A stretch of DNA of 64,000 nucleotides from Thermorudis peleae (GTDB taxonomy: Bacteria > Chloroflexota > Chloroflexia > Thermomicrobiales > Thermomicrobiaceae), in assembly GCF_000744775.1 (NCBI RefSeq), contig NZ_JQMP01000003.1, positions 930,001-994,000 on the forward strand. Reading direction: 5' to 3'. How positions within the stretch are numbered: position 1 is the stretch's first letter; every line of letters begins with the position of its first letter. The position numbers and the translations under genes were made by a program. Below are positions 3,176-30,507 of this stretch, piece after piece. Below the pieces are notes generated by a model. That model was not told where the DNA came from. It worked only from the letters and a program-made list of their open reading frames with translations, and did no database searches.

Positions 3176-3341
3176 TTTTCAATCCCTCCTCGGTACGGGC
3201 AAAACCTGTCCGCGCTGCGGGAAGGAGCCCTGATCGTGCGGAGTTTCAATCCCTCATAGGTACGGGCAAAACGATGGCGACGCGTGGTTCCCCGCTCTCC
3301 GCGCGTGGACGGTTTCAATCCCTCATAGATACGGGCAAAAC
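3176..3341 (-). repeat. Degenerate leader-distal end of the CRISPR array
   Basis: The first repeat copy departs from the consensus at three positions (its first base as drawn on the plus strand, and positions 14 and 16). The third copy has one G-to-A change at position 18. Decay of terminal repeats is the usual sign of the old, leader-distal end and fixes the polarity of the array. Confidence 0.9.
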
Positions 3342-5370
3342 CCGGCACCGGCAGCTGAAGACGGGGAAGGAACTCCCCGTTTCAATCCCTCATAGGTACG
3401 GGCAAAACTGGAATATCGCCACTGACCTCGAGATCAACGACGACGTCGTTTCAATCCCTCATAGGTACGGGCAAAACCGCACATCTCGATGCCGTGATCG
3501 ACCACCTCCAGCAAGTTTCAATCCCTCATAGGTACGGGCAAAACATGGTGACCGCCGTCACGTTCACCGCGTCGTCAATGTTTCAATCCCTCATAGGTAC
3601 GGGCAAAACGTTGTTGCAGGAATTTCCTATGTCATTGAGGATATCGCGTTTCAATCCCTCATAGGTACGGGCAAAACACTTCGTCATTTCCTTGGAAGAC
3701 CAGGCGACTGGGTGTTTCAATCCCTCATAGGTACGGGCAAAACATCAAGCCTGGATAGACAACGTCCGTGCTGGGAACAGTTTCAATCCCTCATAGGTAC
3801 GGGCAAAACAAGTGGCGCCGGGAGTGTACGCTGACGCGCAAGGACGCGTTTCAATCCCTCATAGGTACGGGCAAAACTGGAATGGCAAGCGTCTGCTGCC
3901 CAACGGCGTCAAAGGTTTCAATCCCTCATAGGTACGGGCAAAACTTTCGGCATCGTATCCCCCCAACGTCCTAGTACTCATGTTTCAATCCCTCATAGGT
4001 ACGGGCAAAACCTGGGTCTCCGTTGTGCGCCAGCAGTCGATTCAAGATGTTTCAATCCCTCATAGGTACGGGCAAAACCCCTCGGCCAAAGTCGTCGACG
4101 ACGACAAGCAGGCGAGTTTCAATCCCTCATAGGTACGGGCAAAACGAACGTTGTTCCTCACGAAATCAGGCGTGCGGCCCTGTTTCAATCCCTCATAGGT
4201 ACGGGCAAAACGCGGCAGGCTGAACAAGGCTGCCGCAGAACTCCTGTGTTTCAATCCCTCATAGGTACGGGCAAAACCTCGCTCTTCATCCGGGTCGATG
4301 GGGTGCTCGCCGTCAGTTTCAATCCCTCATAGGTACGGGCAAAACCCGTCCGCTGCTTCCGCGGGTCGATGTAGACGAGGACCCCGGGTTTCAATCCCTC
4401 ATAGGTACGGGCAAAACCGTGGAGGCTGGCGCAGTCGGGGTGCTGACGCTCACCGGTTTCAATCCCTCATAGGTACGGGCAAAACCGGATGGATGCCTGG
4501 ACGGCAGGGTCACGCAGCCAGCGGGTTTCAATCCCTCATAGGTACGGGCAAAACATGGCAGCCCGGCCTGCTTCAGCATCTCGACGAGTGGTTTCAATCC
4601 CTCATAGGTACGGGCAAAACTCAACGGTGTTCCGGCGGAGGAGATGCGGCGGATGCACGTTTCAATCCCTCATAGGTACGGGCAAAACGATCTTCTGGCG
4701 GCCCAGCCGAACGGGCTGCCAGAAGTGTTTCAATCCCTCATAGGTACGGGCAAAACTCTGGCTGAGTCGCACGAATGGGGGGGTTGTCGTGTCTCTTGTT
4801 TCAATCCCTCATAGGTACGGGCAAAACTGTACAGCGGGGGCAGGGCGGTGAAGGAACGACAGGAGCACGTTTCAATCCCTCATAGGTACGGGCAAAACTG
4901 ATTGTTAGAACATCTTCGAGCGGGAAGTCTTCTTCAATGAGTTTCAATCCCTCATAGGTACGGGCAAAACGCCCGGCGACGACACCTCCTACGACACCGC
5001 GATGGGGTTTCAATCCCTCATAGGTACGGGCAAAACACGGGTGGCCGTCCTGGCTCATTGTCGCTGGCATGATCGTTTCAATCCCTCATAGGTACGGGCA
5101 AAACCCTCGAGCGAGCCTGGAGCCAGGCGGCTGCGAGGTCAGTTTCAATCCCTCATAGGTACGGGCAAAACAGAAGCGTGTCCTACCGATAGATATCCGG
5201 CGAGCGTGTTTCAATCCCTCATAGGTACGGGCAAAACGAACCACTGGACGACGTGTGGCTTCCCGTCATCGCGGGTTTCAATCCCTCATAGGTACGGGCA
5301 AAACATACGCCCATAGTCGTCGCACACGACGAGGAGGCGAGTTTCAATCCCTCATAGGTACGGGCAAAAC

Positions 5371-5492
5371 CTGAAGCCGGCGTCGTGGGTTGCCGATCTC
5401 AAGGCGGCGCTTGCGCAGATCGACCAGGACGCCGTCTTCCGTGCGCACCGGGCGCGGGTCGTGGAGCAGGTGTGGGATGGGACCACGCCGAT
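5371..5492 (-). other. Oversized 122-nt CRISPR spacer
   Basis: Between perfect repeats at 5341-5370 and 5493-5522 lies 122 nt where 34-42 nt is normal. No internal repeat remnant is visible. On the plus strand, the frame beginning at 5371 is open throughout and reads like real protein (segment DLKAALAQIDQDAVF), so it may be captured coding DNA. Fusion of two spacers with loss of the repeat between them is an alternative. Confidence 0.9.
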
Positions 5493-8400
5493 GTTTCAAT
5501 CCCTCATAGGTACGGGCAAAACGCAAGTTCAGGGCGCACGCAGTCTCTGCGTCGCCCAGGTTTCAATCCCTCATAGGTACGGGCAAAACTCCAGATATTT
5601 TCCCAGGTATTCTTGAGGTCCTGGAGTTTCAATCCCTCATAGGTACGGGCAAAACGAATAGCGGGCAAGAAACAGATCAATCGCCTCTCGAAGTTTCAAT
5701 CCCTCATAGGTACGGGCAAAACGTGCCGCGCGGATCTTGCTCGGACGCGAAGCAGAGGTTTCAATCCCTCATAGGTACGGGCAAAACCGTATTCTTGACC
5801 GTACTTGCGATCTCTTGTGCCTTGCGCTGGTTTCAATCCCTCATAGGTACGGGCAAAACGGCCGTCCTCAAGTCTCCGAGGACGGCCACATTGAAGTTTC
5901 AATCCCTCATAGGTACGGGCAAAACGACATTGAGGACGCGCTGGCGCAGATGCTGTTGGGCGTTTCAATCCCTCATAGGTACGGGCAAAACAACCACCTC
6001 TCCACCAACGAGGCTTTCGCCCTGGGCGTCGTTTCAATCCCTCATAGGTACGGGCAAAACGGAGAGGTAGTTCGTCCCGTTATACCCACCGACGGCGTAG
6101 TTTCAATCCCTCATAGGTACGGGCAAAACTGACCCACGTCGCTGGTTTCACGGCCTTGACAGCCTCGTTTCAATCCCTCATAGGTACGGGCAAAACGGAG
6201 ACTGCCCCCGAGCATTGGGAGTGAGGACGGTGGTGGGTTTCAATCCCTCATAGGTACGGGCAAAACGTGCAACCACAGTGTCAAGCCCCAGTCGGGGGGA
6301 TAAGTTTCAATCCCTCATAGGTACGGGCAAAACCGGGGCACAGTCGTGCTACAGTGTCCCTGGCGGAAAAAGTTTCAATCCCTCATAGGTACGGGCAAAA
6401 CTTTTGCAGGTCTGGTACGCACACGAATGGTACCAGAGTTTCAATCCCTCATAGGTACGGGCAAAACAACCGTAGCGGTCAACGTTCCCAATCTCGGTAA
6501 TCTGTTTCAATCCCTCATAGGTACGGGCAAAACCAGCTCGCCCGGCTCCTCGCAGCCATAGAGGCCGGGAAGTTTCAATCCCTCATAGGTACGGGCAAAA
6601 CCGAGAATCCGGTCGAGAAGACTCTTGGCGTCGCCAAGTTTCAATCCCTCATAGGTACGGGCAAAACTCATTCTCTCCCACGAACGCGCCGAGCGGATCG
6701 CGAGTTTCAATCCCTCATAGGTACGGGCAAAACGCCACACCTGCATTGCCGTCCCCCTTTCCTTCACTCGTTTCAATCCCTCATAGGTACGGGCAAAACT
6801 GCCGACACGCCCAAACTGGCTCTCATGCCAGAAGATGGCGTTTCAATCCCTCATAGGTACGGGCAAAACATGAGCCCGAGCGCGGCGATGGCAATCGGCA
6901 AGCCAGTTTCAATCCCTCATAGGTACGGGCAAAACAAATGCCGACGACTGGTGTGACTGTGGCGGATTCGGTGTTTCAATCCCTCATAGGTACGGGCAAA
7001 ACGAAGATAGCCGTACCCTGGATGCCGCCGTGCTTCCTGTTTCAATCCCTCATAGGTACGGGCAAAACCGCGAGCGCCCAGTCCAGAAGAACACGGGCGA
7101 GGGCCCGTTTCAATCCCTCATAGGTACGGGCAAAACTCGGGCCCGAACAAAGAGCCCTATCGGTTGCTCGAGTTTCAATCCCTCATAGGTACGGGCAAAA
7201 CCGAGCTTCTTGGTACCCGAGTAGAGGCCGCTCGCCATGTTTCAATCCCTCATAGGTACGGGCAAAACCCGCGCAGGCCGGGCACATTGGCCGCCCGGCG
7301 ACCGTTTCAATCCCTCATAGGTACGGGCAAAACTTTGCCACGCTCACGCCGACTGACACGGGGAATATGTTTCAATCCCTCATAGGTACGGGCAAAACTC
7401 CAGCCACCGTGAGGGTTACCGTTGCTGGCGAGCCGCGTTTCAATCCCTCATAGGTACGGGCAAAACCGAGAACATCGTATCGAGCTGCGTCTCCATGCGG
7501 GGTTTCAATCCCTCATAGGTACGGGCAAAACGGATTGTGACGGAGTGCTGGTGGTTCGGGATCGACAGTTTCAATCCCTCATAGGTACGGGCAAAACATG
7601 AGCCCGAGCGTGGTGATGGCAATCGGCAAGCCAGTTTCAATCCCTCATAGGTACGGGCAAAACCCGCGCTCGGCGTCGAGCCGAACGCGATCGCCTGGCC
7701 GAGTTTCAATCCCTCATAGGTACGGGCAAAACCCGCCCACTTCCTGGTCGGCCGCGACGGACGCGTCGCCGTTTCAATCCCTCATAGGTACGGGCAAAAC
7801 TCTGGTACTCGAGCCGATCCGCCCCCTTCGGAGTGTCGTTTCAATCCCTCATAGGTACGGGCAAAACCTGGCCAAGTATCGGTCATGAATTTCCCTGACC
7901 AGTCATGGTTTCAATCCCTCATAGGTACGGGCAAAACGGAAGTACCTATACGTGGAGGCTTGCCATCAGACCAGTTTCAATCCCTCATAGGTACGGGCAA
8001 AACAGGGAGAAGAACGGCCATGACTGACGTGGAAATCGCGTTTCAATCCCTCATAGGTACGGGCAAAACGGCAATGGGGCGCACAGATGTTGTCTGCCCC
8101 GGCGACTGTTTCAATCCCTCATAGGTACGGGCAAAACCGATACGCCGGGTATCCCACGGGCGCGTTCTGAGCATGGGGTTTCAATCCCTCATAGGTACGG
8201 GCAAAACTCTCCCCAGCGGCGGTGCCAGCGCCGCTGGGGGTCATCGTTTCAATCCCTCATAGGTACGGGCAAAACCCCGGGGGCGTCGTGTCTGGTGTCG
8301 CCGGAGGGAAGTTTCAATCCCTCATAGGTACGGGCAAAACGGGGAGGTGTTCGATCGCCCCGAACCGCTTGGCCACGTTTCAATCCCTCATAGGTACGGG

Positions 8401-11400
8401 CAAAACGATCGCCGCAGCACTCGACCTCCCCCAGGCAACGGTGTTTCAATCCCTCATAGGTACGGGCAAAACGCGCGTCCAGCTGAACAACGCGGCGACG
8501 GCCCTGACGCGGGTTTCAATCCCTCATAGGTACGGGCAAAACTCGCGCCGCTCGTCCCGGCGAACACCCCGGCCTGCATCAGGTGTTTCAATCCCTCATA
8601 GGTACGGGCAAAACACGAGGGACGGGCTCTTGCATATCGCCCACGCGTCTGGCGTTTCAATCCCTCATAGGTACGGGCAAAACCGAGGGGCAGTTACAGC
8701 GCGTGATGTACTTCTGGGTGGTTTCAATCCCTCATAGGTACGGGCAAAACACGTATGCTGGGTCACTGTCCATCGTCGGCCTCCTTCGTTTCAATCCCTC
8801 ATAGGTACGGGCAAAACGACCGGGGCGAAGAGCGTCTCGCTGTCGTAGTCGTGTTTCAATCCCTCATAGGTACGGGCAAAACCCTGACGCTCACCAGCTT
8901 GCTCTCCGACGCCGAGGACCTCGTTTCAATCCCTCATAGGTACGGGCAAAACTTGGAGGCGAGCCACTGGCGGCCGCTCCTCTGCCGTGTTTCAATCCCT
9001 CATAGGTACGGGCAAAACGGCCGCCATTCCCGAACGACCGCGCGCGGACGAAGGTTTCAATCCCTCATAGGTACGGGCAAAACGTGCCACTCACCTGGAG
9101 TTCCACGGTGAAGGTGAGGTTTCAATCCCTCATAGGTACGGGCAAAACTGGAGGTCTGGACACCATGAAGAAGGATGTCGAAAAGTTTCAATCCCTCATA
9201 GGTACGGGCAAAACGCGGAAGGTGCCGTCTGGCGCCGTGTAGGCAAGTGGCGTTTCAATCCCTCATAGGTACGGGCAAAACCCAGGAAATGTCGTCCCCG
9301 CCAATCGCCGCTTGCTGGGTTTCAATCCCTCATAGGTACGGGCAAAACGAGCACCCACTCGGCGACGTCGCCGAGTGGCACGAGTTTCAATCCCTCATAG
9401 GTACGGGCAAAACGATGACAGCGCACGCGGCGTGGTCGGCGGAATTGCGCTGTTTCAATCCCTCATAGGTACGGGCAAAACGATGCGCCGCCCACGGCGT
9501 ACCCACGCTGTGCCGAGTTTCAATCCCTCATAGGTACGGGCAAAACGCCGGGGGGTATTGACAATGGAATATGGCGGGTGCTAGTTTCAATCCCTCATAG
9601 GTACGGGCAAAACTGGGCCGACCTGGGTGAGTTGCTCGACTGTCTGGTTAGTTTCAATCCCTCATAGGTACGGGCAAAACTCAAGCCCCCTGGCGATCGA
9701 ATCTGACCGCCAGGGGTCGTTTCAATCCCTCATAGGTACGGGCAAAACTCCTCGAGCACCTGCAGACCGTCATCACCGACCTCGAGGTTTCAATCCCTCA
9801 TAGGTACGGGCAAAACACAGCCTCACACGTCACTCCGTACCGCGCCAAACGGCGGTTTCAATCCCTCATAGGTACGGGCAAAACGTTCATGCTCATGACG
9901 GGACTGCGGCCGGGAGAAGGTTTCAATCCCTCATAGGTACGGGCAAAACGTCCTGCGCATCTGTGAACGGTACGGCCTTGACCCGCTCCTGTTTCAATCC
10001 CTCATAGGTACGGGCAAAACAAAGGATCGGTCTCCCATGATGACAGATGACGGTGGTCGTTTCAATCCCTCATAGGTACGGGCAAAACCGCCAAGCGCAT
10101 CGAGATCGCCGATACGCCAGGCGCCAGTTTCAATCCCTCATAGGTACGGGCAAAACGATGCCGACGGGAAGTGGATCGCGACGGCGAAGGTCGTTTCAAT
10201 CCCTCATAGGTACGGGCAAAACGCATGACCACGGCGAGCGGCACGATCGCCCGTCTCTGCGTTTCAATCCCTCATAGGTACGGGCAAAACTCCTGGACGT
10301 GTACGGTGCGACGCGCTGGCTTGGCAGTTTCAATCCCTCATAGGTACGGGCAAAACGCACTCCCCATTGGCGTTGGTACGGTCACCGTTGATGGGTTTCA
10401 ATCCCTCATAGGTACGGGCAAAACGGGAGCGCGGCGAGTTCCTCGTTCTTGAAAAAGCTTGGCTGTTTCAATCCCTCATAGGTACGGGCAAAACCCTCGC
10501 CGCCCTCATTGATGAGGCGCGCCAGCTCGCTGTTTCAATCCCTCATAGGTACGGGCAAAACATCAATGCCGCCGTCAAGCAACTCCGCGCCATCGGCGGT
10601 TTCAATCCCTCATAGGTACGGGCAAAACCATTCTCTCCCACGAACGCGCGGATCGGATCGCGAGTTTCAATCCCTCATAGGTACGGGCAAAACCGTGGCC
10701 AGTCATGTATCGGCCAGGAATTTCCAGGACGTTTCAATCCCTCATAGGTACGGGCAAAACTCGGGCCCGAACAAAGAGCCCTATCGGTTGCTCGAGTTTC
10801 AATCCCTCATAGGTACGGGCAAAACCGGGTGCACGATGCCAAGCCTGCACCCGAAGCACTTCGTTTCAATCCCTCATAGGTACGGGCAAAACCATGAATC
10901 GTGGCTCGGACTACAATCGGGTATGGCGTTTCAATCCCTCATAGGTACGGGCAAAACTGAGTCGGCGCTTCCAAGGTTGGCTTGGGTTGCCGAGTTTCAA
11001 TCCCTCATAGGTACGGGCAAAACCCATTGTCGTTCTCCCTTCGTGTTGCTGCATGAAACGGAGTTTCAATCCCTCATAGGTACGGGCAAAACTGACCGCC
11101 AAACTGGGTTATGGCCGTGATGACGGCCGTGTTTCAATCCCTCATAGGTACGGGCAAAACTCTGCCCGAATCGCCGTCACGACCTCGATAACATCCTGTT
11201 TCAATCCCTCATAGGTACGGGCAAAACGCCCTCGTGCTGATCGACGTCGATCGCGCGATTGCTGTTTCAATCCCTCATAGGTACGGGCAAAACTGTACGG
11301 ACACAGTGTCCGGACGCTGTGCACGAACACTAGTTTCAATCCCTCATAGGTACGGGCAAAACTGAAGGTCAATCCAGAACGGTTCTGGCAGTATCTTGAA

Positions 11401-14400
11401 GTTTCAATCCCTCATAGGTACGGGCAAAACGTCGCGAAGCTCGATGCGGACACCGTCCCAGTCGATCACGGTTTCAATCCCTCATAGGTACGGGCAAAAC
11501 TCGGTGGAGGATTTCTCGAGTACTGGCGGTACCTTGTCCGGTTTCAATCCCTCATAGGTACGGGCAAAACGACGCATCGAAAACGCCCTCCACGGCGCAA
11601 CCTTCGAAGTTTCAATCCCTCATAGGTACGGGCAAAACTATCGGAATCCAGTTGATGCACGTGGTGATTGCCGCAGTTTCAATCCCTCATAGGTACGGGC
11701 AAAACTACCCCACTGCTCGATTTCGTTTCCCTGACCAATGCGGTTTCAATCCCTCATAGGTACGGGCAAAACTCGAACCATTCCCCCTGATCATGGTTAT
11801 GGGGATGGTGTTTCAATCCCTCATAGGTACGGGCAAAACCGAGAAGTATCGTCTTCTCGATGATTCTTATCGCTAGTTTCAATCCCTCATAGGTACGGGC
11901 AAAACCGGGAGGAACGGCTGCCACGCCGTGCCGGTGTCGAGGTTTCAATCCCTCATAGGTACGGGCAAAACATTGGGCGTCCCGGAGGATTCGGCAAAAG
12001 GTATCGCGATGTTTCAATCCCTCATAGGTACGGGCAAAACAATGCCCGGAGGCGTGGAGGAAGAGCAGCGTCACGCTGGTTTCAATCCCTCATAGGTACG
12101 GGCAAAACCGGGAACCAGGGTTGCTACCGCCACGAACGATTTCAGCAGTTTCAATCCCTCATAGGTACGGGCAAAACTGCCACGCGATGAAGGCGACCGC
12201 CACAACAGCGGCAAGTTTCAATCCCTCATAGGTACGGGCAAAACCCGCGACGGCCTGCTCCACATCGCGCACGCCTCCGGCGTTTCAATCCCTCATAGGT
12301 ACGGGCAAAACCAAAGGCGTGGCAGAAGGCGCCGCGTGCGATGACCGTGGTTTCAATCCCTCATAGGTACGGGCAAAACGGTTGTCCCGATATTGACGAC
12401 TTTCTGATTACTCTGTTTCAATCCCTCATAGGTACGGGCAAAACGCCTGGAAGCTCGCCGAGGACTTGTTGTTTTCCTATCTCGAGTTTCAATCCCTCAT
12501 AGGTACGGGCAAAACGCAGGACGCTCGTGAGGCCCTGTCGCTCACGCCGGAGTTTCAATCCCTCATAGGTACGGGCAAAACATGTCCGGTATGTCACCGA
12601 GGAACAACCGGGAGAACGTTTCAATCCCTCATAGGTACGGGCAAAACGGAATGCGTGCACGCTTGGTGAAGCCGAGCTTTTTGTTTCAATCCCTCATAGG
12701 TACGGGCAAAACGCTGCCTCCGCCCCGAGTCGCCTGAGGAGCACATCCGTTTCAATCCCTCATAGGTACGGGCAAAACCGCCGGGCAGTGGGATTCCGTA
12801 GTGAACGAATTCACGTTTCAATCCCTCATAGGTACGGGCAAAACTACGGGCCGATTGTGGCCCGCTTTCTCGAAATCGGTGTTTCAATCCCTCATAGGTA
12901 CGGGCAAAACGACAACCTGGGACAACGCCGAAACAAGAGGTCGTGTGTTTCAATCCCTCATAGGTACGGGCAAAACTTTTCAGATCAACTTGAAGGCGCA
13001 TCCGAACGTCTCAGAGGTTTCAATCCCTCATAGGTACGGGCAAAACCGAGACAGAGACCCGCGCCGTGGCCGTGCCCGCGGAGAGTTTCAATCCCTCATA
13101 GGTACGGGCAAAACCTTGCCCACGAGCGTGACGCGCTCGTTCTGCTTGAAGGGTTTCAATCCCTCATAGGTACGGGCAAAACTCACCGAGATAGCGTCGC
13201 GCGATCCGCACCAACATGGACGTTTCAATCCCTCATAGGTACGGGCAAAACTTGAATATCACTGGTTCAATCACAGGTACATTGTCAAGCCCGTTTCAAT
13301 CCCTCATAGGTACGGGCAAAACCGTTTCTGGTGAAGCGAACGAGGATTGTTCGGCATCGGTTTCAATCCCTCATAGGTACGGGCAAAACTCCGTCCAGGT
13401 CGTCCACGTCCCATCGGATCGGACAGTTTCAATCCCTCATAGGTACGGGCAAAACACGGACGACCGCCGCCACATAGCCCTCGGGATCATGTTTCAATCC
13501 CTCATAGGTACGGGCAAAACGCTCGCGTGCCGTGGAGAAGCCTTCGAGCTCGATGAGTTTCAATCCCTCATAGGTACGGGCAAAACTGCTGGGGGCGCCC
13601 CTATCAGGATGTCCCGCTGACGTTTCAATCCCTCATAGGTACGGGCAAAACTCTTCTGAGGCTGACGGCCCGGCCCCGGCATCAGCTGTTTCAATCCCTC
13701 ATAGGTACGGGCAAAACCCCGCTCTGCCAAGTGTGTGCCGCCCGTCGTGCAATAGTTTCAATCCCTCATAGGTACGGGCAAAACTCGTCGATCTCGCCGA
13801 CCCATCGCCGCACCTCAGCCTCGTTTCAATCCCTCATAGGTACGGGCAAAACTGCCTCGCCAGCCCTGCCATGCCAGCCCTGCCACGCCCAGTTTCAATC
13901 CCTCATAGGTACGGGCAAAACCCAAGAGCCGCCTGAAGGGGGATATACCGATCTAGGGTTTCAATCCCTCATAGGTACGGGCAAAACGCGTCCTCGGCAC
14001 CGCCAGGCCTTCCGCCTCAAGCAGTTTCAATCCCTCATAGGTACGGGCAAAACCTTGCCATCGACGGTGCCCCGTACAAACAGGGCACCGGTTTCAATCC
14101 CTCATAGGTACGGGCAAAACTCTTGGTATAGAAGAGGATGACGTCGTGAATACGGCCAGTTTCAATCCCTCATAGGTACGGGCAAAACGAGGGTTGTCGT
14201 GGTCGTGTCGGCGGCCGGCAGGAGTTTCAATCCCTCATAGGTACGGGCAAAACGCCGCTGATGACCGTCGTAGACCTCGCCGTCAGGCCCAAGTTTCAAT
14301 CCCTCATAGGTACGGGCAAAACCCAAGCCCGGCTGGGAGTATCGGGAGGTCCATCCCTAGTTTCAATCCCTCATAGGTACGGGCAAAACGAACCCGCAGC

Positions 14401-15668
14401 ATCTGCCGCACGACCCGGCGTATGTGTTTCAATCCCTCATAGGTACGGGCAAAACAGCGAACGGCGCACCGAAGAACGCCCGCAGGATCGAGGTTTCAAT
14501 CCCTCATAGGTACGGGCAAAACTTGGGCTCGTGGTAACGAGGTCCTGGAAGGTGCGCTGTTTCAATCCCTCATAGGTACGGGCAAAACCGCCAGGTTCGG
14601 TCATGCACCGCCGTCCAGGGGTGCAGTTTCAATCCCTCATAGGTACGGGCAAAACTTTGGTCCGAAGACCGCATCGAGCACGAGTTTGATGGGTTTCAAT
14701 CCCTCATAGGTACGGGCAAAACTTCGACGCGCTGGGCAATGGTATCGCCACGATAGAGCAGTTTCAATCCCTCATAGGTACGGGCAAAACGCACGTCAGT
14801 GCCAGCCGCCTCATTTGCGCGCTTTTGCGCGGTTTCAATCCCTCATAGGTACGGGCAAAACGCGGTCAAGGGCGGTGGCAAGGGCACGATCAAAGGTTTC
14901 AATCCCTCATAGGTACGGGCAAAACGATCAGCTCGCTTCCACTCTCCGCATCTCCCGTTCAGCTGGTTTCAATCCCTCATAGGTACGGGCAAAACCCTCG
15001 CCAGCCCTGCCATGCCAGCCCTGCCACGCCCAGTTTCAATCCCTCATAGGTACGGGCAAAACGCTGGCGCTTTCTATTCCGGAGGAATTCAACGAAATCA
15101 GTTTCAATCCCTCATAGGTACGGGCAAAACGGCGGAGAATCCGTGAATTCCGTGAGCAGCGAGGATGTTTCAATCCCTCATAGGTACGGGCAAAACCCGC
15201 TGACCAAGAACGAACGTGGACGGCTCAACGAGGGTTTCAATCCCTCATAGGTACGGGCAAAACAAGCGGCCGTACTGCGCCGACCTGAAGGTGCTGGCGT
15301 TGTTTCAATCCCTCATAGGTACGGGCAAAACCGCTCGCTGAGCGTGGCTTCATTCTCCGATACACCGTGTTTCAATCCCTCATAGGTACGGGCAAAACGC
15401 CATGTTCCCAGTGTCGGCCGCGTCCATCACAAGATGTTTCAATCCCTCATAGGTACGGGCAAAACAAGCAACGTGTCGACGTCAAGGTCATCGTAGGGGA
15501 AGTTTCAATCCCTCATAGGTACGGGCAAAACTTTGCGGATCCGCTTGAGCACGTCGCGGTGGAGCACCGTTTCAATCCCTCATAGGTACGGGCAAAACGG
15601 GTCCAGGTAGGCCAGGAGACCAGCGGCAATCACCGGTCGTTTCAATCCCTCATAGGTACGGGCAAAAC

Positions 15669-21472: not shown

Positions 21473-21650
21473 ACGCCGTTGCTCCTCGTCCCTGTGGCGG
21501 AGCTCCCGCCTTCATGTTGCGCAAGCCTACCATCCCATTGCCCCGCTGTCGAGACCGGTGCCGGGTATTCCGGCGGTCGTGCATTGCGTGATACGTCCGC
21601 GGAGGCGGCCCGCGCTGGGTGCGCCGGTGCCGGGGAGACCCGGGTGCACG

Positions 21651-22030
21651 TGGTTGACATGGTTGACAGGGTTGACAGTGGTTGAGCGGGAGCGGTTGAG
21701 TGTGGTTGAGTGGTTGAGTGCGGTTGAGTGCGGTTGACGGGGGTAACGGTGGTTGAACCGGTTGAACGTGGTTGAAGGTGGTTGAAACGGTTGAAAGCGG
21801 CCAAAAACCGCGTGACGACGCGGAAGTTCTTTCAACCACCGCGACCACACACCGGTTGAAAGGGTTGAATGCGGGGAATGCCGGTGATGGTGGTTGACAG
21901 TGGTTGACACGGTTGACAGTGGTTGACGGGTTGACAGTGGTTGACGGGTTGACAGTGGTTGACAGGGGTAACGGTGGTTGACGGAATTGATGTCGGTGAG
22001 AGTGGTTGACAGTGGTTGACGTGGTTGACA
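21651..22030 (+). repeat. Left arm of GGTTGA tandem-repeat block
   Basis: Short units built on GGTTGA plus a variable next base, at mostly 8-11-bp spacing. They come in runs by type: GTTGAC units (21651-21682), GTTGAG units (21680-21732), GTTGAA units (21750-21800) ending in cassette 1, then GTTGAC units (21891-22029) ending in cassette 2. Non-unit inserts are short, for example 21868-21890. I recognise no described repeat family. Confidence 0.9.
21789..21862 (+). other. Hairpin cassette, copy 1 (A type)
   Basis: A 74-bp element. It opens with GGTTGAAAG, then a small hairpin GCGG-ccaaaaa-CCGC (21797-21811), a conserved stretch TGACGACGCGGAA, and a 9-bp hairpin CTTTCAACC (21829-21837) / GGTTGAAAG (21854-21862) with a 16-nt loop. 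It is flanked by units of the matching GGTTGAA type. It could be a structured RNA or a DNA site; no known family is recognised. Confidence 0.75.
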
Positions 22031-22097
22031 AGGGTCAAAAAATCCCATGAAGACGCGGAAACGCTGTCAACCACCCCGACCACGCACTGGTTGACAG
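22023..22097 (+). other. Hairpin cassette, copy 2 (C type)
   Basis: A 75-bp element with the same layout: GGTTGACA start, GGG-tcaaaaaat-CCC hairpin (22032-22046), conserved TGAAGACGCGGAA, and a 9-bp hairpin CTGTCAACC (22064-22072) / GGTTGACAG (22089-22097) with a 16-nt loop. Both sides of the stem changed relative to copy 1, so pairing is kept. Upstream units are of the GGTTGAC type. Confidence 0.75.
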
Positions 22098-22167
22098 CCG
22101 TGCCTGCCCCGTCCACGACCACCACCCACCCCTGTGCTCCTCACCGCTCACGTGCCACCGGCCTACC

Positions 22168-22553
22168 CGTTTCAACCGTTTCAACCACTTCAACCGCTTC
22201 AACCGTTTCAACCACTTCAACCGTTTCAACCACTTCAACCACTTCAACCGCTTCAACCACCTTCAACCGCTTCAACCGTTTCAACCACTTCAACCACCTT
22301 CAACCGCTTCAACCACTTCAACCGTTTCAACCACCTTCAACCGCTTCAACCGCGTTCAACCACGGTACCACTGCAACCAGCGCACCTGCTGTCAACCCTG
22401 TCAACCACGTCAACCGCGTCAACCACGTCAACCGCGTCAACCGCGTCAACCATGTCAACCGCGTCAACCACGTCAACCGTGTCAACCACGTCAACCACGT
22501 CAACCACTGTCAACCGTGTCAACCACTGTCAACCGCACTCAACCGACTCAACC
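22168..22553 (-). repeat. Right arm of GGTTGA tandem-repeat block, inverted
   Basis: The same units on the opposite strand, mostly with a strict 9-bp period: TTCAACC units (22168-22362), then GTCAACC units (22391-22541), then ACTCAACC units (22538-22553) leading into cassette 3. The left and right arms therefore form a large imperfect inverted repeat around a unit-free centre at 22099-22167. Confidence 0.92.
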
Positions 22554-22618
22554 GGTGCTGGGTCAGGGTGGTTGAGTGGATTTCCGCGTTGTCATGGGGT
22601 TTTTGCCCGTACTCAACC
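22546..22618 (-). other. Hairpin cassette, copy 3 (G type)
   Basis: A 73-bp element on the minus strand: GGTTGAGTA start (22618 downward), hairpin of GGG and CCC around CAAAAA (22596-22608), conserved TGACAACGCGGAA, then an 8-bp hairpin ACTCAACC / GGTTGAGT (22546-22553 with 22570-22577) and a 16-nt loop. Adjacent units are of the GGTTGAG type. Confidence 0.75.
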
Positions 22619-22671
22619 GACTCAACCACTGGTGCACGGTTGACGGGTGGTGGAGTTGCGTGGGGGCTGGG

Positions 22672-22759
22672 TGGTGTCATATCCCAGGGTGCAGCCGGTG
22701 CGGGCTGAGACGGTCGGAGCAGGGACACGGCGTCGAGCAGTCTGGTGTCATATCCCAGG
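22672..22759. repeat. 17-nt exact direct repeat pair, 71 bp apart
   Basis: TGGTGTCATATCCCAGG occurs at 22672-22688 and 22743-22759. The flanking bases differ. No function is recognised. Confidence 0.8.
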
Positions 22760-22913
22760 TCTCAGCACGCGCGGGCGCCGCAGGCGAAGGGGTCACACGC
22801 GCGGTGCCACAGGCGCGGGCGCCGCGAGCTGGCAGCGGGCTCACGCTCCGTTTCCCGGCAGATTGCCGGCCTCCCGGTTGGCGCGGGAGTATGCACACAG
22901 CCTGGTATGGCCG

Positions 22914-29373: not shown

Positions 29374-30240
29374 CTAGAGCGTCTGGTCGGGGTGGGCAAG
29401 ACGCTGGTAGATGGCTGAGAGCTCGTCATCTGAGTAGTAGTGGATGACAATCTGGCCGCCTTTCCGGCCGGGGCGGAGTTCGACTTTCGTGCCGAGCGCA
29501 CGCCGGAACCCTTCCTCCACGTGCTGCAGTGCTGGCGGGAGCGAGCGGGGTGCTGTGGCGCGCGACGTCCGCTGCGCCCAGCGCTGCACCAGCGCTTCCG
29601 TCTGTCGGACCGTCAGCCCTCGCTCGATGACGATGGCCAGCGCCGCGACCTGGTCGAGGGCGTTCGGCAGGCCGAGCAGGGCTCGCGCGTGCCCCTCGGT
29701 GATCTGACCGTCAGCCAGCGCGGCTTGAATGGCAGGCGGCGCGTGTAGCAGGCGGAGCGTGTTGGCGATCGCCGCGCGGCTGCGGCCGACGCGCGCAGCC
29801 AGCTCTTGCTGCGTGAGTCCAAATTCGGTGATCAGCGCCTGGTAGGCGGCTGCTTCTTCCAGTGGCGTCAGGTCCGCCCGTTGCAGGTTCTCGATCAGGG
29901 CGATTTCGAGTGTCTCGCGCGGCGTTACGTCGCGGATGATTGCCGGGATCGTCGCGAGCCCGGCCAAGCGGGCTGCCCGCCAGCGACGCTCGCCCGCGAC
30001 AAGCTGAAACGTGGTACCGTCGTCAGCGCGCGTGACGATGATCGGCTGGACCACACCGTGGGCGCGAATGGACTCGGCCAGCGCCGCGAGCGCATCCTCA
30101 TCGATGCGCTGCCGGGGTTGGTGGGGGTTGGGCTGGATCGCGTCGAGCGGCAGTTCGACAATCTCGCTCTGCACCTGCCCGGTATCGTGCTGGATCAGCG
30201 CGTCCAGTCCGCGCCCAAGGCCGCCACGTCGCTGTCGCAT
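29374..30240 (-). CDS. parB: ParB/Spo0J-family chromosome partition protein
   Basis: 288 residues from the ATG at 30240 (MRQRRGGLGRGLDALI, the standard ParB start). The CTPase/ParB-nuclease-like domain shows NPHQPR, then the signature GERRWRAA near residue 95 and IENLQRADLTPLEEA. A helix-turn-helix follows (LTQQELAARVGRSRAAI). The C-terminal part is the dimerisation region. ParB binds parS sites and spreads by CTP-driven clamping to organise the origin. No parA is in the window, no gidA/rnpA-type origin genes are near, and I found no canonical 16-bp parS. It converges on glyS with a 59-bp gap. Confidence 0.92.
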   Translation of the reverse strand: MRQRRGGLGRGLDALIQHDTGQVQSEIVELPLDAIQPNPHQPRQRIDEDALAALAESIRAHGVVQPIIVTRADDGTTFQLVAGERRWRAARLAGLATIPAIIRDVTPRETLEIALIENLQRADLTPLEEAAAYQALITEFGLTQQELAARVGRSRAAIANTLRLLHAPPAIQAALADGQITEGHARALLGLPNALDQVAALAIVIERGLTVRQTEALVQRWAQRTSRATAPRSLPPALQHVEEGFRRALGTKVELRPGRKGGQIVIHYYSDDELSAIYQRLAHPDQTL

Positions 30241-30507
30241 GCCACACCTCATCCACTTCTCTTCGGAGTCTAGCGTAGGCGCGCGCACTTGGCCAAGCCG
30301 CTTGCACGGCAGCTGCCGTGGCAGGCCAGCCCGGCCAGTGCGAGCACGACTGCCGCGTGTTGTCGAGCCTGGCAGCGCTGGCCGCTGGGCGGAGCACATC
30401 CCCAGCCGGCACGGCGTCGCGCGCTGGTGGGCAGCGTTCGGTTATGCGGGCGATTCCGGAGTAGACTCAAGCGGGGCAGACGGCCCTGAGGTTGATTGCG
30501 AGGGACT

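Follow-up and report, generated by a model that had tools for sequence, protein, structure and literature searches.

An iteron array with three origin-like cassettes, probably the orphan origin of an element with a primase-helicase initiator

In phage P4 a primase-helicase initiator, alpha, binds short iterons at ori, and a second iteron region, crr, acts in cis. In phage lambda the coding region of gene O, which encodes the initiator, contains the iterons; they are four in number, longer, and accompanied by an AT-rich region. Short repeats also serve in other roles on replicons: plasmid inc iterons and datA titrate or handcuff initiators, and plasmid centromeres, too, can consist of arrayed repeats of 7-11 bp, both direct and inverted. 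In phage-inducible chromosomal islands (PICIs) the origin is located 3' of the initiator gene, with an AT-rich region flanked on either side by a set of iterons (PMC6092414). In the pRN1 family a stem-loop origin located 3' of the replication gene keeps its structure while its sequence changes (PMC4234260).

Here we describe an array at ~952 kb of contig C3, in the window (the whole stretch of 64,000 nucleotides that was analysed). What is observed is the array with its geometry, a second copy inside a rep gene and, in many relatives, the same arrangement on the 3' side of the helicase domain. Because arrays sit 3' of the helicase in those relatives, matching the published origins of phage-inducible islands, we regard the block 21652-22643 as probably an orphan iteron origin array of a phage-, plasmid- or island-like element with a primase-helicase Rep.

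The array, its cassettes and the copy in a rep gene

The block contains ~74 copies of the unit GGTTGA(A/C/G) in both orientations, mostly 9-10 bp apart, with three cassettes embedded among them (Table 1). Exact GGTTGA/TCAACC words number 74 in the ~1 kb of the array, whereas their density in the remainder of the window is 0.41 per kb, and a triple-unit search pattern has 24 matches in the window and 0 in 100 shuffles. The units form two sets, one per side, with forward units at 21652-22094 and inverted units at 22172-22627; no AT-rich (melting) region lies between these sets, the spacer at 22098-22171 being G+C-rich. The base after GGTTGA, N7, is arranged in blocks of A, C and G, its identity between adjacent units being 0.89 as compared to 0.39 in shuffles. 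GTGCAC stands beside the outermost unit at both ends of the array, and again at the left edge of the second copy on contig C1 (L023, just before 6551). Among the genes adjoining the window array, none was recognised as a rep, an integrase or another mobile-element gene.

Re-reading the sequence recovered all three cassettes of the first-pass annotation, A, C and G, in place and on the same strands, together with their stems: CTTTCAACC/GGTTGAAAG, CTGTCAACC/GGTTGACAG and (C)ACTCAACC/GGTTGAGT. Both arms are altered at two of the pair positions. Equally, ACGCGGAA and the 16-nt loop are conserved across the cassettes. All of them show a common frame: a forward unit, 43-44 bp on an inverted unit, and 22 bp further another forward unit, with a core near GACGCGGAA in every case. 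The annotation did not mention the surrounding array, of whose unit, GGTTGA(A/C/G), the stem arms are themselves copies; the base after GGTTGA in each cassette is that of the array block surrounding it.

Table 1. Features of the array in window coordinates; > and < denote forward and inverted units
Feature	Position	Strand	Description
GTGCAC	21644-21649	.	left edge of array; read directly
Left forward iteron block	21652-21788	+	13 units GGTTGA(C/G/A)NN, ahead of cassette A
Cassette A	21789-21862	+	unit > 43 bp < 22 bp >; A-type unit GGTTGAA
Cassette A core	21808-21826	+	conserved core CCGCGTGACGACGCGGAAG; imperfect hairpin CCGCGT/ACGCGG
Forward iteron block between cassettes A and C	21863-22022	+	mainly C-type GGTTGAC, with a few degenerate units
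Cassette C	22023-22097	+	unit > 44 bp < 22 bp >; C-type unit GGTTGAC
Cassette C core	22046-22061	+	conserved core CATGAAGACGCGGAAA
Central spacer	22098-22171	.	no units, G+C-rich
Inverted iteron block	22172-22361	-	21 A-type units (TTCAACC on + strand)
Inverted iteron block	22392-22553	-	16 C-type, then 2 G-type units
Cassette G	22546-22618	-	unit > 43 bp < 22 bp >; G-type unit GGTTGAG
Cassette G core	22581-22596	-	conserved core CATGACAACGCGGAAA
Last units at right edge	22613-22643	.	two inverted, one forward
GTGCAC	22632-22637	.	right edge of array; read directly

Genome-wide, the triple-unit pattern is found in only one other place, C1:286.7 kb, where a fourth cassette with the same spacing as those of the window is 79% identical to cassette A over 71 nt. 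This second array lies within the 3' part of an AAA_25/wHTH primase-helicase gene (C1:284-287.5 kb) and hence in coding DNA. The Rep frame displays an N-terminal CHC2-like zinc finger and a TOPRIM-like segment (by eye), followed by AAA_25 and a winged helix; Toprim is weakly visible in its relatives, and the protein matches phage DNA primase/helicase families. Its helicase part has only one match in this genome at E 1e-10, and those flanking genes that were scanned are metabolic.

Several other identities were considered for the window array and set aside. A chromosomal oriC was rejected on position, with dnaA at C3:288857 and the array at ~C3:952 kb. A coding array was rejected on composition: the frames are open, but GC3 is 0.58-0.62 in them versus 0.87-0.91 in the flanking genes. 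For integron attC or TIGR-type guide arrays, no integrase or effector gene was recognised adjoining the array. As for an empty site, the MFS gene beside the array is kept in the family, and ten relative loci align only over that gene; their fetched flanks hold <=3 single copies of the array word per strand. The other neighbour of the array has no homologue at the strict cut-off of 1e-150.

Elsewhere in the window, a very large CRISPR array (3176-15668) comprises 185 repeats of GTTTCAATCCCTCATAGGTACGGGCAAAAC and 183 spacers, which show no match to the fetched loci beyond short chance ones. To the right of the iteron array there are two copies of TGGTGTCATATCCCAGG (22672-22705 and 22743-22776), which recurs in one further place in the genome at one mismatch (C3:759542).

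Iteron clusters at related helicase loci

AAA_25 relatives drawn from genomes and viral contigs were surveyed for clusters, defined as one 6-mer in >=5 copies, in both orientations, with two neighbours 8-11 bp apart. Such two-way clusters are present within 400 bp downstream of the helicase match in 50 of 141 loci and in none of 705 shuffles; the bin before the match has them in 7 of 145 and every other bin in <=4, while 91 of the 141 relatives lack a cluster by this definition. The clustered word varies among lineages. In the 39 loci listed, units occur within the ORF, downstream of it, or in both places. With ~74 units the window array has far more of them than most of the surveyed loci. In some other relatives (e.g. 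L064, L066 and L068) TATATA cores were seen by eye. An Ardenticatenia contig (L095, 5909-6300) carries ~23 direct copies of TTACACA after the helicase gene. In Thermalbibacter longus (L059) the gene after the iteron-bearing rep gene (7262-7774) has a Pox_D5 domain, which we take to be the origin-binding fold of P4, and shows no sequence match to solved structures; a terminase-small-subunit-like gene follows (9185-9664), and the two together suggest a prophage or satellite.

The core was further searched for in 400 genomes of the phylum with one mismatch allowed. As the 26 matches compare with roughly 21 for a reversed-pattern control, most one-mismatch matches are due to chance, so that weight can be given only to the exact ones and to those that lie among iterons. 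Exact matches are found in the C1 copy and in genomes G002, G007, G013, G016 and G225, the last of which belongs to another family and has no evident array. In viral contigs the pattern has 15 matches, none within an iteron array, and these were taken as chance.

Relatives of the helicase gene within the same family show a similar three-unit frame and the core, with a different unit: GGTAGA in G019 and GGTGGA in G002 and G007. The spacing of the frame also differs, being 46-11-12 in G019 and 51-28 in G002 and G007. Two further locus types occur in Thermomicrobia. In G013 and G016 TGTAAC units surround the exact core where a DNA polymerase A-family frame starts, and that frame is preceded by a long one without a Pfam match. 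G001 has two cores, one of them a one-mismatch match, surrounded by GTGACG units; these lie at the 3' end of another long frame, again without a Pfam match. No AAA_25 helicase was recognised in these TGTAAC and GTGACG types, and judged by eye their long Pfam-less frames read as helicases. A separate locus of G007 (L265, G007:C78, 1211-1670) has GGTATATATTAGAGGGGTC repeats ~110-170 bp apart, among several hairpins resembling CCGCGT-NNNN-ACGCGG, upstream of frames that by eye resemble an HTH protein and a phage protein; these repeats are perhaps tandem phage promoters.

The proposed origin and competing explanations

Under the orphan origin reading, GGTTGA(N), a word of 6-7 bp, would be the binding site of Rep, with the sites about one helical turn apart and oppositely oriented on the two sides of the array. 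Each cassette is predicted to be an origin module, in which three units at fixed spacing (> 43-44 < 22 >) frame a conserved core, and the core GACGCGGAA with its imperfect hairpin could be a site of melting, priming or host-factor binding. The window copy would be an orphan, in that a gene for a Rep of this family, with the same unit and core within it, lies not beside it but on another contig, C1. Such a module presumably fires or once fired. The window copy is now likely to be mainly a relic or a Rep-binding site, and it may alternatively serve as a second site acting in cis or as a Rep sponge. The analysis also points to a type of origin, situated behind AAA_25 primase-helicase genes or within them, that has a lineage-specific binding word and, in Thermomicrobia, a core common to origins with different units, whereby initiator-iteron specificity becomes open to computational matching and simple binding tests.

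The first-pass annotation had argued that both arms of the stem changed together and that pairing was accordingly under selection. Helix 2 is indeed paired in 97% of cells across the four copies, with two pairs altered on both sides and covariation above slid controls, and three of the four copies fold better than shuffles, all of which would suit a structured RNA or single-stranded DNA element with a 9-bp stem kept by compensatory change. We nevertheless hold such an element to be quite improbable: the arms are themselves units of the array, and ~68 further units beyond the stems vary in the same manner. Moreover, the arms match each other beyond GGTTGA not significantly better than two random units of the same type (P = 0.07, with three cassettes only; P = 0.004 if type is ignored), copy G folds no better than shuffles (z -0.5), the first hairpin is paired in only 69% of cells, and Rfam gives no match at gathering score over the 64 kb window. 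Unit type would thus account for the covariation with at most a weak extra contribution, and the paired changes most likely reflect concerted change of the iteron rather than selection on RNA structure. The argument for selected pairing is thus not sustained, the arms being iteron units in a local array that changes alike as a whole; nor is that for a functional RNA, given the fourth copy in coding DNA and the lack of an Rfam match. More generally, a covariation-like signal can arise without RNA where protein-binding units form the arms of a stem and the unit changes array-wide.

The annotation had also favoured a functional structure over a neutral repeat, and here the functional part stands while that on selected pairing does not: between diverged cassette copies, identity is 100% in the iteron 6-mers and 89-100% in the ACGCGGAA core, as opposed to 53-68% at other positions. 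Cassette G and the C1 rep-gene copy are 91% identical outside the iterons and core. An inert minisatellite, derived from an old origin fragment by slippage, would account for an array much longer than typical origins, for G+C-rich 9-bp units, which are prone to expansion, and for the clustering of the N7 type noted above, which is expected from local duplication. Yet the cassette cores are kept between otherwise diverged copies, and the 6-mers are kept while diversity is high at the spacer bases N8 and N9, with a pairwise identity of 0.34-0.35. As the units were located through their exact 6-mer, this contrast is somewhat biased and the array-wide conservation overstated; a few degenerate units can be seen in the gaps of the array. 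On balance, neutral expansion appears unlikely. Still less probable is a chromosomal sponge kept by the host, in which ~74 candidate Rep-binding units and three origin cores titrate or handcuff the Rep of a resident or incoming element in the manner of inc iterons and datA; if true, it would block replication of the element or keep the chromosomal rep-origin gene silent. A partition centromere with ParR/omega-type iterons, which the resemblance to plasmid centromere arrays and a ParB-like gene at 29374-30399 (by eye) might suggest, is very improbable: that gene does not adjoin the array, and in 50 relatives the clusters lie directly 3' of a replicative helicase domain, inside or just after its gene.

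Comparison with described origins

As a probable orphan origin, the array can be placed beside several described systems. With phage lambda it shares, in the C1 copy, iterons within the coding region of the initiator gene; lambda differs in its four longer iterons, its AT-rich region and an unrelated initiator. The pRN1 family likewise has its origin 3' of the replication gene, but there it is one 100-nt stem-loop served by an archaeo-eukaryotic primase with an SF3 helicase, as against the many iterons seen here. The likeness to the alpha/ori/crr system of phage P4 lies in the primase-helicase type of initiator (with a wHTH in the C1 Rep and putative binding) and in a second cis-acting iteron region, although the two sites of P4 reside in one element and those described here on different contigs. 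The Pri-Rep-ori arrangement of SaPIs and PICIs is comparable in that the origin is immediately 3' of the primase/initiator gene and flanked by two sets of short iterons: the C1 copy, in the 3' part of rep, has such a position, as do the clusters of 50 of the 141 relatives, and the window array has its forward and inverted sets on both sides, with no rep gene adjoining it. In contrast to the SaPI/PICI origins, the window copy thus stands without a rep gene and there is no AT-rich middle, while in the C1 copy the units are inside the coding sequence and the helicase is of the AAA_25 type, and an extra core is common to origins with different units.
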